Shown here in pieces: positions 36,737 through 43,213 of a stretch of DNA of 64,000 bases. The stretch's first letter is position 1. Each line of letters opens with the position of its first letter. The translations under genes were made by a program, and so were the position numbers. A model generated the notes under the pieces. That model searched no databases, was not told the origin of the DNA, and saw only the letters and a list, made by a program, of their open reading frames with translations. Origin of the DNA: Sulfuriroseicoccus oceanibius (lineage in GTDB: Bacteria > Verrucomicrobiota > Verrucomicrobiia > Verrucomicrobiales > SLCJ01); contig NZ_CP066776.1 of NCBI RefSeq assembly GCF_010681825.2, positions 1,550,001 to 1,614,000 of the forward strand. The letters run 5' to 3'.

Positions 36737-38533
36737 TTATTTGGCCACGACGTCGGGGCGCAGGTTGGCGTGGAAATCGCTGCCCTGCACGGTGGCGGTA
36801 ATGTAATCTTTGCGGATGACGAAGTCGCCGAAGCGCTCGCCTTCGTTGCGGTTCTGGGCGTAGTCCAGAATGATCGGGCGCAGGGTGTCTACGATCTCGC
36901 TGTCCTTGATGTCCTGACGGTAGAGTTTGTTGAGGCGGTTGCCGGAGAATCCTCCACCGAGGTACAGATTGTAGCGGCCTGGTCCACGTCCGACGAAACC
37001 GATCTCGGCCAGGAATGGGCGGGCGCAGCCGTTAGGGCAGCCGGTCATGCGGATGGTGATCGCGTCTTCAGCGAGTCCAGCTTCCTCGACCACGTCGTCG
37101 ATCTGGGAAATCAGATCCGGCAGGTAACGCTCGGCTTCAGCCAATGCGAGGCCGCAGGTTGGCAGTGCCACACAGGCCATTGAGTTCAATCGCAGGGCGG
37201 TGCGCTCGAAGGTCGCATCGATCTGGTACTCCTTGAGAAGTGCTTCGATCTCGGACTTCTTCTCAGGCGTCACGCGGGCGATCTGCAGGTTCTGGTTGGC
37301 GGTCAGGCGGAAGTCACCGGTGTGGACCTTGGCGATTTCACGCAGCGCGGTGCGCAGGCGGAAGTCTCCTTTGTCCAGCACGCGGCCGCCTTGAACGAAG
37401 AGCGTGTGGTGCCAGTTGCCGTCCTCGTCTTCAACCCATCCGTAACGGTCGCCATTGTCTTCGAATGCGAACTCTCGCTCTTCACCCAGCTTGTAACCGA
37501 GTCGCTGTTCGACCTGGTCGCGGAACCAGTCGAGGCCGCGGTCTTCAATGGTGTACTTGAGGCGGGCGTGGGCGCGCACTTTGCGGTCGCCGAAGTCGCG
37601 CTGTACGGAGACCACAGCTTCAGCCACAGCCACGGCTTGTTCCGGCGTGCAGAATCCGAGCACTTCGGCCAAGCGTGGGAATGTGTCGGTGTTGCCGTGG
37701 GTCGAGCCCATGCCTCCGCCAACGGTCACGTTGTAACCGACGAGCTTGTCGTCTTCGATGATGGCGATGAATCCGAGGTCGTGGGCGTAAATGTCCACGT
37801 CGTTGCTAGGTGGAACTGCCACCACGATCTTGAACTTACGCGGCAGGTAGGTCTTGCCGTAAATCGGCTCCACCTCGTCACCCGAGTCGCCAATGATGGG
37901 CTCCGGCTCCTGGGTCACCTTGAACTTCTCACCAGCCTCGTCGCTCAGCCAGATCTCATGGTAAGCCGGGGTCTTCGGGGTGAGGTGGTCGGAAATCTGC
38001 TTCGACAACTCGAGGACCGCTGCGTGGTGCTTGCTCTGGTATGGGTTCGGGTTGCACATCACGTTGCGGTTCACGTCGCCGCAGGCAGCGATCGTGTCGA
38101 GCAACGACAAATTGATGTCTTCAATTGTCTGCTTGAGGTTGCTCTTGATCACACCGTGGAACTGATACGCCTGGCGTGTGGTCAGCTTGATGGTGCCGTT
38201 GGCGTAGGTGTCCGAGATCTCATCCATCGCGAGCCACTGCTCCGGTGTGGTCACACCACCTGGCACGCGAACGCGGATCATGAACGAGTAGGCCGGCTCC
38301 AACTTGTGGGCACGGCGGTTCTTGCGCAGGTCGCGGTCGTCCTGCATGTACGATCCGTGGAACTTGAGCAGCTGACCTTCGTCTGCGCTGATCGAGCCGG
38401 TCGACGCATTGGCCAGACTCTCGATCAACGTGCCTTTGAGGTAGTTGCTGCCCACTTTGAGCGGTTCGTTCTTCGACAGATTCTCAACAGGAGCCGAGCG
38501 GGTGTGGTCTTCGTTCTGAGTAGCGGTAGCCAT
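36737..38533 (-). CDS. cysI: Sulfite reductase hemoprotein subunit (CysI-like)
   Basis: 598 residues, six-electron reduction of sulfite to sulfide using siroheme and a [4Fe-4S] cluster. Two ferredoxin-like repeats with nitrite/sulfite reductase domains are visible. The cluster ligands lie in CVALPTC (CxxxxxC) and GCPNGC (CxxxC). [20 protein letters not shown] and [20 protein letters not shown] fit CysI of the NADPH type. No flavoprotein CysJ is nearby, so the electron source (CysJ elsewhere, or ferredoxin) is open. It leads the cysI-cysH-cysK operon. Confidence 0.94.
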
Positions 38534-38584: not shown

Positions 38585-38733
38585 GGTGAGGAATCTAAGG
38601 ATTAAGTTTCTCTTTGCAAGCTGAAATCTGCGCATTTCGTTCGCAACGTGCTGGATGCCTTGTTTTTCCTTGATTTCCAGGTCTTCGATAAATGCGGTTG
38701 CAGTTGGTTGGGGTTCTCTGGCATGCTCACTGG

Positions 38734-39984
38734 GTGCGTTTAAACCTGACAAGAAGGCTGAGGATTACTTCTTTGCTGCGTTCGTTGTTGATTGCCTGCG
38801 GGCTTTCTGCTGTGGCGGTGCAGGCATCCGAGGTGCGCACATGGATGGATGTTCGCGGGCGCAGCTTGGTCGCCGAGGTCGTGTCGATTGAGGGCGATAC
38901 TGTGGTGTTGCGGCGAGATCGTGACCGGCAGGATGTCCGCATGCGGTTGGCGGATTTATCCGCTACGGACCGCAATTGGTTGATTCTATGGCAGAAGGAC
39001 CAAGAGGGAGGGGATACGACCAACGGTGTCGAGCAATCGCTCAACGGGAGTTGGCCGGGGCGCATGGCTTTTCCTCGTAGCGTTCAGGTCGAGACCGACA
39101 AATCATACGAAAGGGCGGGGCGAACCTTCTATTGCTGGTACTCGGACAACTTCCGCTTTGTGTGTGACGAGCAATTGGATGCTTCCGTGGTAGCCATGAT
39201 GGCACGGATGTTCGAGGGAACTCACGCGGTATGCGAGGCGTTGCCGCTCGGGTTGCGCCCTCACCAGCTCAAGCAGCAGCGGCGTACCCGTTATCCGATT
39301 TTACTCTTCAGTACCAAGCGTGAGTATCTGGCTGCCGGTGGGGCCGCGGGCAGCTCGGGTAGCTACGACACTGGGCGTGACACCTGTCTGGTTCCGCTGG
39401 AATCGATCGGCGTGCGGAAGGCTGGAAGACGCTATGTCATGGACTCTGGCGGAGAACATTCCACTTTGGTGCATGAAATCACCCACCAATTGACGGGAAC
39501 TTTGCTCGACGGCAACCCATGGTTCCGTGAGGGGCTGGCCGAGTATGTCGCGGTGATTCCCCAGCGTACATCGAGCTTTGACTTGCGGGGGATTGAGAGG
39601 TCGATCGTGGAATATCTGACCCGTGTTCCGGGCAGGGGACAGGCGGGGCGTTCGATGCGAACTGTGTTCACGCTGCCGTCGATGGAGTCGTTTTTGCAGA
39701 TGGATCAGGGAGCCTTTATCGGGATGAGCTTGCAGGACGAGGATGCCGCTGAACAAGTCAACACCCACTATGCGGGTGCGTTGATGTGGTTTTGCTACTT
39801 TGCCCACGATGCCGAGCGCGGTGATGGTGAGCCTTTGAAACGTTATGCGAGGGTAGTCCTGCGGGGAGGCAGCTCTGAGGAGGCGAATGAAGCCTTGTTG
39901 GGTGCCCGCGACTTTGACTATCACGAGCGCATGTTTTCCATGGTGTGGAAGAGGCGCGGCTTGGATGTGAAGTTCGCCGATTAG
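38734..39984 (+). CDS. Secreted SHD1-domain protein with HExxH (peptidase MA-like) domain
   Basis: About 416 residues from a GTG at 38734 (alternatively 430 from ATG 38692). The signal peptide is LLRSLLIACGLSAVAVQA. An SHD1/SLA1-homology domain follows at the N-terminus (RTWMDVRGRSLVAEVVSIEG; RMRLADLSATDRNWL). After a linker comes a gluzincin-like metalloprotease domain: HEITHQLTG, then a Glu in FREGLAEYVA about 20 residues later. The combination is common in Planctomycetota-Verrucomicrobiota secreted proteins. The target is unknown. A homologous gene with a destroyed protease motif lies directly downstream. Confidence 0.82.
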   Translation: MRLNLTRRLRITSLLRSLLIACGLSAVAVQASEVRTWMDVRGRSLVAEVVSIEGDTVVLRRDRDRQDVRMRLADLSATDRNWLILWQKDQEGGDTTNGVEQSLNGSWPGRMAFPRSVQVETDKSYERAGRTFYCWYSDNFRFVCDEQLDASVVAMMARMFEGTHAVCEALPLGLRPHQLKQQRRTRYPILLFSTKREYLAAGGAAGSSGSYDTGRDTCLVPLESIGVRKAGRRYVMDSGGEHSTLVHEITHQLTGTLLDGNPWFREGLAEYVAVIPQRTSSFDLRGIERSIVEYLTRVPGRGQAGRSMRTVFTLPSMESFLQMDQGAFIGMSLQDEDAAEQVNTHYAGALMWFCYFAHDAERGDGEPLKRYARVVLRGGSSEEANEALLGARDFDYHERMFSMVWKRRGLDVKFAD

Positions 39985-40304
39985 CTGATGGCGGAGTTTT
40001 CACCATGAAGCTAGGCGCGATCATGACTGATATTCAGTCACTCTCGGGCGATGTCGGTTGGATCTACTGATGACACAGAGTGCACCGGGAGGAGGCTGGA
40101 AGGATGGGATTCCTCGGTAGTTATGAGATCCTCAGGTGGAGTGATAAATGCGTGCGCAGCGCTGGAGGCGCGGCATTCCTGCCGTCATTGCGCCGCCTCA
40201 AAGCTATTCCTCACGAGAGCACCTCAGGAAAATGTGCTGGCTTTGAAGATGAAGCATGGTTGACGGACCAAAGGATCACTTGTTATCTCATCATCCACCA
40301 ATTG
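39985..40304. other. Intergenic region with a GGCATTCCTGCCG repeat
   Basis: No gene is seen in these 320 bp between the two SHD1 genes. The segment 40152-40200 is a dispersed repeat with the palindrome CGGCATTCCTGCCG and flanks shared with 48596-48650. A read-through frame joins it to the second SHD1 gene but is not conserved sequence. Confidence 0.6.
40152..40200 (+). repeat. Dispersed GGCATTCCTGCCG repeat, copy a
   Basis: TGCGCAGCGCTGGAGGCGCG is followed by GGCATTCCTGCCGTCATTGC. The same arrangement (TGCGCAGTGCTGGAGGGACG, GGCATTCCTGCCGTCGGTGC) occurs at 48596-48650. Confidence 0.7.
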
Positions 40305-41687
40305 ATGAGTATGGATTTTCGCAAACGATGGAGGTTCCTAATGTGCGCGGCACTGGCTGCAGGCACAGCCTTCGCATCGGCGGAAATGCGCACGTGGACG
40401 GATGTAAAGGGGCGCAAGGTCCAGGCGGAATTGCTGGAGGTGGACATGACCCGCGGGGTGCGCGTCCGTCTGGCCAATGGTCGGGAAGTCTGGATTGCCA
40501 TGGAGAAGCTTGCCGGCCGCGACCGGATCTTCGCCCGTACCGAGTTCGCCCGCAAACTTCGCGCAGACCAGCTACGTGATCCATTCGCTCCTAATGAACG
40601 CCAGACCAGGCCGGAAAAAGCCAAGCCCGCGGCCCGTCCGGTCGAGCCTAATTTTTCGGATCCGTGGCCGTCGGTGATCGATTCTGACATCTCGCCCGAT
40701 CTCAAGTTCATCGAGCCAGAGGAGGGCGATGATTACTATGTCTGTGAAAGCGCGCACTACCGTGTCCGCACATCAGCGAGGTTGTCAAAATCGTTGAGCA
40801 AACGCTTGATGATTCTCCTGGAGTCGACCCACCGCTACTGTGCCCAGGTGCCGCTGAACTTTACCAAGCCTCGGCAGCAGCAGCCGGAGAAATTCCCTGT
40901 ACGTTTGTTTGCTTCGGAGAAGGACTACCGGATGGCGGGGGGCTTGATGGGAGCTAAGGCCAGTTATAATGCGCGAAACGGAGAAGTTTTGATCACCTTG
41001 GAGGCTCTCGGAGTCAAGGAGATCGGAAACGGTTATACCAGTGATGCCTCGGGGCGTGACCAGGAGTTGGTAGCCTTGTTTGTTCGTCAATTGGCGGATC
41101 CTGCGTGGACGAAGGTGTCGTGGCTCGACCGTGGACTGGCGAGCTTCATGCGGATCACCCCGTACCGTCCGGGAAAGTTTACTCCATCCAGCATGAAGCG
41201 GCCGGTGGAGCGTTTCTTTGTCCATCCGGTTGCGGAAGTCGAAGACCAGGAATACCTGCTCGATCCCGATTATCAGAAGAGCGACATGGAAAAGTTGCTC
41301 GAGGACGCGGAGATGGAGGATACCATCGTCGAAAAGCCGTATGAACCGGGATTCGGACTTGGTACCAAGGTGGTTTCACCGCCGTTGGCCCGGTTGATGG
41401 CATTTTCAGAGCTCGAGTTCGACGCCGATTTGCTAGGGGAAGGCAAGCGATCCGCTGTGCACTATGGCGTGGCGACCTTGCTCGTTCACTATATGCTCAA
41501 CGGAGATGGGGAATCGGGGAAAAAGGCTTTCCAGCAGTACCTTCGCGCTCTTCAAAAAGGGAAGGCACATGCTGAAGTGGCTCCGTTGCTTTATGGCAAG
41601 CGCACGCCGGAGCAGTTTCAAAAGGATTTTCAACGTTACTGGACCCGCGCCGGGATCGACATCTCTTTCGAGCAGCCGGGCGCGTAG
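40305..41687 (+). CDS. Secreted SHD1-domain protein, degenerate peptidase paralogue
   Basis: About 460 residues with a signal peptide (RFLMCAALAAGTAFASA). The SHD1 domain follows (RTWTDVKGRKVQAELLEVDM; WIAMEKLAGRDR). The rest is a full-length paralogue of the upstream protein: 'YGVATLLVHYMLNGDGES' lines up with 'YAGALMWFCYFAHDAERG'. The protease motif is lost: the HEITHQLTG of the neighbour is ALFVRQLAD here, while GLASFM replaces GLAEYV. It is therefore predicted to be a catalytically dead partner, regulator or binding protein. ATG 40305 is chosen at the signal peptide. It faces the sulfatase gene, 21 bp away. Confidence 0.82.
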   Translation: MSMDFRKRWRFLMCAALAAGTAFASAEMRTWTDVKGRKVQAELLEVDMTRGVRVRLANGREVWIAMEKLAGRDRIFARTEFARKLRADQLRDPFAPNERQTRPEKAKPAARPVEPNFSDPWPSVIDSDISPDLKFIEPEEGDDYYVCESAHYRVRTSARLSKSLSKRLMILLESTHRYCAQVPLNFTKPRQQQPEKFPVRLFASEKDYRMAGGLMGAKASYNARNGEVLITLEALGVKEIGNGYTSDASGRDQELVALFVRQLADPAWTKVSWLDRGLASFMRITPYRPGKFTPSSMKRPVERFFVHPVAEVEDQEYLLDPDYQKSDMEKLLEDAEMEDTIVEKPYEPGFGLGTKVVSPPLARLMAFSELEFDADLLGEGKRSAVHYGVATLLVHYMLNGDGESGKKAFQQYLRALQKGKAHAEVAPLLYGKRTPEQFQKDFQRYWTRAGIDISFEQPGA

Positions 41688-41708: not shown

Positions 41709-43058
41709 CTATTTTTGGATAGAGAAGCCCGGGGTATCGCGATGCGATTTGTCGATCTGTTGTTTGATCATCTCCACCTCCTGAGGTCGGTGAGGTGCTA
41801 GATTCTGGCTCTCGACGTGATTCGTGCTTAGATCATAGAGCTCGATTTCAGAGTTCTCCCCGTTACGCACCGCTTTCAGGTTCTGCTGGCGCACCGCCTG
41901 GCGGAAGTGCGAGTTCCCGACGTGGAAGAGCTCGAAATAGAGCGCTTCGTGCTCGGCTTGTGCCTTACCCTGCAACTCGGGGAGGAACGAAATGCCGTCG
42001 GTGTCATCGGGCGCGCTGGTTCCGGCAACCTGCGCCAGCGTTGGCATGATATCGTAAAAGGCCGACAGATGCCGAGTCACCGATCCTGCTTGGATCTTCC
42101 CATTCCAATAGGCGATCAGCGGTACCCTGATGCCGCCCTCGTAGACATCGCGCTTGTGGCCGCGGAATGGGCCGGAGCTCTGAAATGGGTTTGGGATGTG
42201 TTGCCCTTCCACGTGGGGGCCGTTGTCGCTGGTGAACAAAACCAGGGTGTTCTCCAGATCGCCGTCCTTTTCCAAGCGCTTCAGGAGGCGCCCGACCTCG
42301 CGGTCGAGCAGGGTGATTTTGGCAGCATGGCGGCGCTGCATTTCCGTCCATCCGCGATCCGCGTAGAGCGTTTGGTTTCCGATCTTGCGCTCGTGGGCAT
42401 GCGGCGCGCGGTAGGACATCATTAAGAAGAAGGGTCTCTCATCGTCTTTTTCGTCGAGGAATTGCAACGCAAGATCGGTGCGGAATTCGTCCAGACAGTC
42501 GTAGCGGGTGATGTCGTAGTTGATGGATTCCTGATCTCCGTTGATCCAATGTTTGTTGGCATTGTAACGCGATGGGTTGCGGGCATCCCATTGCTCTTGG
42601 ACCGAGAAATCGAAGCCGCGCGAGAATGCCCAGGTGGAGGGATCCTCTGCGACATCCAAATGCCACTTGCCTACAAATGCCGTCTGGTACCCCGCGGCCT
42701 TGAGCATCTCAGCCATCGTGGTTTCGTCTGGTTGCAGGGCGACCCTGCGGCGCTCGCCGCCGTCAAATACCCCCAAATTGCCTCGGATCGACGTGTGGCC
42801 TGCATGTTTTCCACTCATCAAGACCGCTCGCGACGGCGCGCACACCGGCGAGCCTGCGTAAAACTGCTCAAAGCGCATTCCTTCCGCTGCAAGCTTGTCG
42901 AGTGTCGGCGTTTGGATCACCTGTTGGCCATAACAGCCAAGCTCTCCGTAGCCCAAGTCGTCGGCTAGCAGTAGGACGATGTTGGGTTGTTCCGCGCGGA
43001 CTTCGAATAGAACCAAAGTCATTCCGGCGAGTACTGTGAGCCATGGGGGGATTTTCAT
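41709..43058 (-). CDS. Type I sulfatase (arylsulfatase family), exported
   Basis: 449 residues with an N-terminal signal peptide (WLTVLAGMTLVLFEVRA). The S1 sulfatase fold begins QPNIVLLLADDLGYGELGCYG, with Ca2+-binding Asp33-Asp34. The formylglycine-forming motif CAPSR has Cys73, and GKHAGHTS follows. TSDNGPH holds the distal metal ligands. It hydrolyses sulfate esters, on glycans or small molecules. Activity needs a formylglycine-generating enzyme that is not in the window. The ATG at 43058 opens the signal peptide. Confidence 0.93.
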   Translation of the reverse strand: MKIPPWLTVLAGMTLVLFEVRAEQPNIVLLLADDLGYGELGCYGQQVIQTPTLDKLAAEGMRFEQFYAGSPVCAPSRAVLMSGKHAGHTSIRGNLGVFDGGERRRVALQPDETTMAEMLKAAGYQTAFVGKWHLDVAEDPSTWAFSRGFDFSVQEQWDARNPSRYNANKHWINGDQESINYDITRYDCLDEFRTDLALQFLDEKDDERPFFLMMSYRAPHAHERKIGNQTLYADRGWTEMQRRHAAKITLLDREVGRLLKRLEKDGDLENTLVLFTSDNGPHVEGQHIPNPFQSSGPFRGHKRDVYEGGIRVPLIAYWNGKIQAGSVTRHLSAFYDIMPTLAQVAGTSAPDDTDGISFLPELQGKAQAEHEALYFELFHVGNSHFRQAVRQQNLKAVRNGENSEIELYDLSTNHVESQNLAPHRPQEVEMIKQQIDKSHRDTPGFSIQK

Positions 43059-43213
43059 AATCAGGTTGGCGTAGATGACGGTGTGGTGCTTCACCAGTCA
43101 GCGTTTCCGCGCGGGATCTCAACGTGTCACCCTAGGTGATCTTTCATGGTACGGCTAGTTTCAGCGCGTTGGTGTTCGATTGGCTCGGGCGACATGAGAG
43201 TGCGGCCGGGCCT

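Follow-up and report, generated by a model that had tools for sequence, protein, structure and literature searches.

In the window, the whole 64,000-nucleotide stretch of the Sulfuriroseicoccus oceanibius genome analysed here, two adjacent genes encode related secreted proteins, one with a complete zinc-protease motif and one without. Does the second gene supply a partner for the first, is it decaying, or does its product have a task of its own?

The original prediction had described the two as homologous, secreted and in tandem, and all of this holds. P0001 (38734..39984, + strand) is intact, begins with GTG and encodes 416 aa; an ATG upstream, at 38692, is a possible alternative start. P0002 (40305..41687, + strand) encodes 460 aa from an ATG, in a reading frame that is open from 40080. 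A signal-peptide-like segment can be read from the sequence at the N-terminus of both. BLASTP aligns the two proteins with 24% identity over 457 columns (E 7e-31) and places HEITHQLTG opposite ALFVRQLAD.

P0001 has both features of a gluzincin (clan MA), the HExxH motif and a downstream Glu as zinc ligand. Its active-site segment LVHEITHQLTGTLLDGNPWFREGLAEY (residues 245-271, 39466..39546, + strand) contains HEITH...EGLAEY, and the catalytic positions are invariant in live members of the family. The corresponding segment of P0002, LVALFVRQLADPAWTKVSWLDRGLASFM (residues 255-282, 41067..41150, + strand), reads ALFVR...RGLASF in the family alignment. A257, L258, R261 and R276 take the places of H, E, H and E in the live members, which means that P0002 has replaced the catalytic Glu together with each of the three zinc ligands, among them the E of EGLAEY. 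P0002 lacks the gluzincin signature and fits the definition of a pseudopeptidase, a protein homologous to active peptidases in which the catalytic residues are replaced. P0002 retains 37 of the 57 columns that are conserved in more than 80% of live members, yet it has changed at all four of the invariant catalytic columns. The loss of the active site is thus not a matter of general scrambling.

The predicted structures agree with the claim that the fold around the lost motif was kept. AlphaFold gave confident models of both proteins (pLDDT 89.5 for P0001, 84.9 for P0002), and the helix of P0002 that formerly carried the active site (residues 252-263) is still predicted. A fold search with P0001 returned a solved SHD1 domain and, at low TM-score, a Deinococcus M1 peptidase (E 1e-3); P0002 matched the SHD1 structure 2hbp and M9 peptidase domains of clostridial collagenases (E 4e-5, again with a low TM-score). 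Both proteins have a peptidase fold, judging from the models and from these significant low-scoring matches. The clan MA gluzincins M9 (bacterial collagenase) and M1 (aminopeptidases) are the nearest solved folds to P0002 and P0001, respectively, but the TM-scores are only about 0.3-0.4, the identity is about 10% and the N-terminal domain differs, being SHD1 here; the dead copies also lack the ligands that M9 and M1 enzymes have. From its sequence and model, we regard P0002 as a full-length, predicted exported pseudo-metallopeptidase whose zinc and hydrolysis chemistry is lost.

The shared SHD1 domain stands less clearly. Pfam SHD1 (PF03983) matches P0002 with 19.6 bits, below the gathering cut-off of 23.7, and does not match P0001. 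A profile of the family, however, hits the solved SHD1 structure 2hbp with E 3e-6, and a match at E 0.1 is found in 49 of 57 family members, the domain being still recognisable in most of the scanned dead copies. The call is therefore weak by Pfam alone but supported by the family profile and the predicted folds, which place an SH3 barrel of the SHD1 type at residues 27-79 or so of P0002 (40383..40541, + strand). On the peptidase side, DUF1570 (PF07607) matches 14 of the 57 members (best E 4e-6) and Peptidase_MA_2 (PF13485) three, while neither profile matches P0001 or P0002 themselves. These gluzincin-like families have the HExxH plus EGxAE motif in common with the live proteins; P0002 is without it. 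We found no paper on this SHD1-gluzincin family among the open-licence literature.

The two genes lie on the same strand, 320 bases apart. No + strand terminator is predicted between them, and a search for operon signals gave no useful promoter- or terminator-like site. A cysI-like sulfite/nitrite reductase gene (family name read from the sequence; 36737..38533, - strand) is divergent from the pair, and a sulfatase-like gene (41709-43094, - strand) lies just downstream of P0002 in convergent orientation. We also noticed that 15 of 16 bases match between 39478-39493, the catalytic codons of P0001, and 40290-40305, in front of the P0002 start, a match that probably arose by chance. A recent tandem duplication was considered as the origin of the pair and is ruled out by the 24% identity and by a third copy in the same genome. 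This intact copy, at 384 kb (motif HELTH), is 33-35% identical to P0001 and 29-34% to P0002, hence closer to either than they are to each other. In the tree, a sister relationship of P0001 and P0002 is neither recovered nor rejected (AU p 0.50).

Orthologs of P0002 are rare. The sole detectable one, 40% identical, is encoded in the MAG LH_M34, which belongs to the same genus and is the one other genome of that genus in the comparison. Searches of 387 genomes from the order and 384 from the class found no further ortholog, and a search of GTDB contigs returned a single match, LH_M34 itself. The two orthologs form a clade with 100/100 support and occupy the same locus, anchored by the cysI-like gene together with cysH, cysK and proB (names read from sequence). 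With NEVIH...EGLASY, the LH_M34 protein is without the first zinc His but has the remaining catalytic residues. The expectation that the second copy would lack HExxH in relatives is thus borne out in the only relative that has it. Fewer of the 57 live-conserved columns are lost in the LH_M34 protein (14) than in P0002 (20), and the changes A219, T231, E254 and S280 are common to both. So is a large acidic insertion predicted with low confidence, at residues 311-346 or thereabouts of P0002. The former active-site region, residues 254-291, is identical between the two at 21 of 38 positions, above the 40% of the whole protein.

The second expectation, that the two-gene order would recur, fails: the pair is conserved in no relative examined. 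LH_M34 has no live copy adjacent to its dead gene, which makes the dead gene syntenic but not the pair, and we found no gene closely related to P0001 in that genome; its other full-length copy (HEITH) falls on a different branch of the tree. A HupE/UreJ-like gene (L052:5348-6550, name read from the sequence) stands in the position of P0001, with cysI on one side and the dead gene on the other. The original prediction held that a pair without conservation would be just recent decay, a conclusion that does not follow from the absence of the pair.

Dead copies also occur in two further clades. The first comprises 14 genomes of a genus that we infer to be Akkermansia, where the dead gene is unlinked to the live one and its motif in the main group is HWxxQ...DGFSAY. 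By Nei-Gojobori pairs, which are not independent of each other, dN/dS is 0.22 (0.12-0.28) for 12 dead copies and 0.11 for nine live ones. The dead clade is under purifying selection by this measure, which indirectly supports a retained non-catalytic role. Among the sampled genomes of the genus, 14 have both types, two only the live one, none only the dead one and at least six neither at the thresholds used (these include G003, G029, G037, G049, G059 and G066). That the dead gene never occurs there without the live one fits a dependence, and simple gene loss in reduced genomes would account for it as well. Both A. muciniphila copies were compared with Amuc_1434, a reported protease of that species, and the link was rejected, as its DTG and LLG motifs are absent from both. 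The other clade, in family f5, counts 12 copies in 10 genomes; most have lost all four catalytic positions, and they are likewise unlinked to live copies. Dead members make up 12 of 108 in the non-redundant set, which includes dead copies deliberately sought.

How often was the active site lost? A tree that omits the motif columns and the longest branches recovers P0002/LH_M34, Akkermansia and f5 as three dead clades, each with 100/100 support. Three changes are needed on the best tree (bootstrap range 3-3), and the starred branches force at least two. A single origin of all dead copies appears in 0% of bootstraps once the f5 clade is included; a test run before f5 was added did not reject a shared origin of the f1 and Akkermansia dead clades (p 0.45). 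Irrespective of the tree, the residue patterns of these two are mutually exclusive: the Glu and second His survive in LH_M34, in Akkermansia only the first His does. Their common ancestor must therefore have had a full HExxH, unless residues reverted. We conclude from the alignment and tree that copies in this expanded Verrucomicrobiales family were inactivated separately at least twice, and probably three or more times, and then kept.

The original prediction took P0002 for one half of a functional pair, as opposed to decay. The LH_M34 ortholog without HExxH, the old dead clades and the selection in Akkermansia speak for the part that denies decay; the part that postulates pairing found no support. 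The case for a retained non-catalytic role is strong for the Akkermansia copies, good for those of f5 and moderate for P0002. We lean, somewhat beyond even chances, towards P0002 being one of a class of non-catalytic binding proteins that arose repeatedly in an expanded family of exported proteases and were retained, binding without cutting in trans. The retained cleft and the SHD1 domain might still hold a peptide or envelope-protein ligand that the live relatives process, and the dead copy could act as binder, protector or presenter, independently of being encoded beside P0001. Binding without cleavage would be the most economical mechanism because the fold is kept and the former active-site region is conserved. 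It counts against this reading that the dead clade of P0002 has just two members, and that LH_M34 has lost only one of four catalytic residues, which makes a late independent loss in each possible. Such a loss would suit recent decay, in which P0002 would be a disappearing paralog whose frame is still open by chance, the motif of LH_M34 having been lost in a separate event. The greater loss in P0002, the different replacements of the first His (A in P0002, N in LH_M34) and the mere two genomes with a gene of this type point that way. We nevertheless consider decay unlikely, given the four shared changes, the retention of other dead clades over genus to family depth, and an intact frame of 460 codons with a normal coding signature and GC by codon position like that of P0001. 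Synonymous sites are saturated between the orthologs, but the differences by codon position (0.50/0.38/0.65) form the pattern of a functioning gene.

An obligate pair, with P0002 as a non-catalytic subunit that would bind P0001 and shape or gate its cleft, we hold to be quite improbable. It has in its favour the tandem arrangement of two exported proteins on one strand with no intervening terminator, another dead-live-live cluster (in G129), and the bacterial M16B two-gene peptidases, in which a live subunit lies adjacent to one without the zinc motif (PMC8960859, PMC11266112), just as in P0001 and P0002. The M16B enzymes, however, have another fold and motif (HxxEH), and their pair is a functional unit, whereas the pairing is not conserved here: the dead gene stands without a live neighbour in LH_M34, where no gene close to P0001 was detected, and is unlinked to live copies in Akkermansia and f5. 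P0002 might instead be a neofunctionalised structural or surface protein, the cleft being irrelevant and SHD1 and the outer surfaces doing the work. The persistence of SHD1 in dead copies and the shared acidic insertion would suit this idea, but the above-average conservation of residues 254-291 does not, and we find it the most doubtful of these readings. As for a wider claim, it seems rather unlikely that exported SHD1-gluzincin proteases are repeatedly converted in Verrucomicrobiales to dead regulators, whose task is to hold or gate the substrates of live paralogs. This would be a parallel strategy across the order, shared by Akkermansia muciniphila, and the window would contain a case in which the regulator is encoded beside a live enzyme.

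Pseudoproteases have been studied mostly in eukaryotes. What we describe is one exported bacterial family in which copies were inactivated on several separate occasions and retained, and one such dead copy is conserved among the species of Akkermansia, so that the role of a dead bacterial protease becomes testable in a culturable gut bacterium. Expanded families with retained dead members are also known from bacterial pseudo-orthocaspases and the GH28 pseudoenzymes of beetles (PMC6426788, PMC6549527), although their enzymes and settings are unrelated to those of P0002.

Local clusters occur elsewhere in the family. Contig 4 of G129 (L120:3512-7358) carries three members in tandem, a dead one (YLAAQ) followed by two live ones; the dead copy has a very long branch (length 4-5), and its placement in the tree is not trusted. 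Clusters of live copies only (L106, L107, L207 and L056, in G360, G132, G085 and G050) indicate that local duplication is common in this family. Finally, the second zinc His has become Arg both in P0002 (41085-41087) and in most f5 dead copies (L213-L222), apparently independently; Arg may be a convergent solution for filling a vacant metal site.
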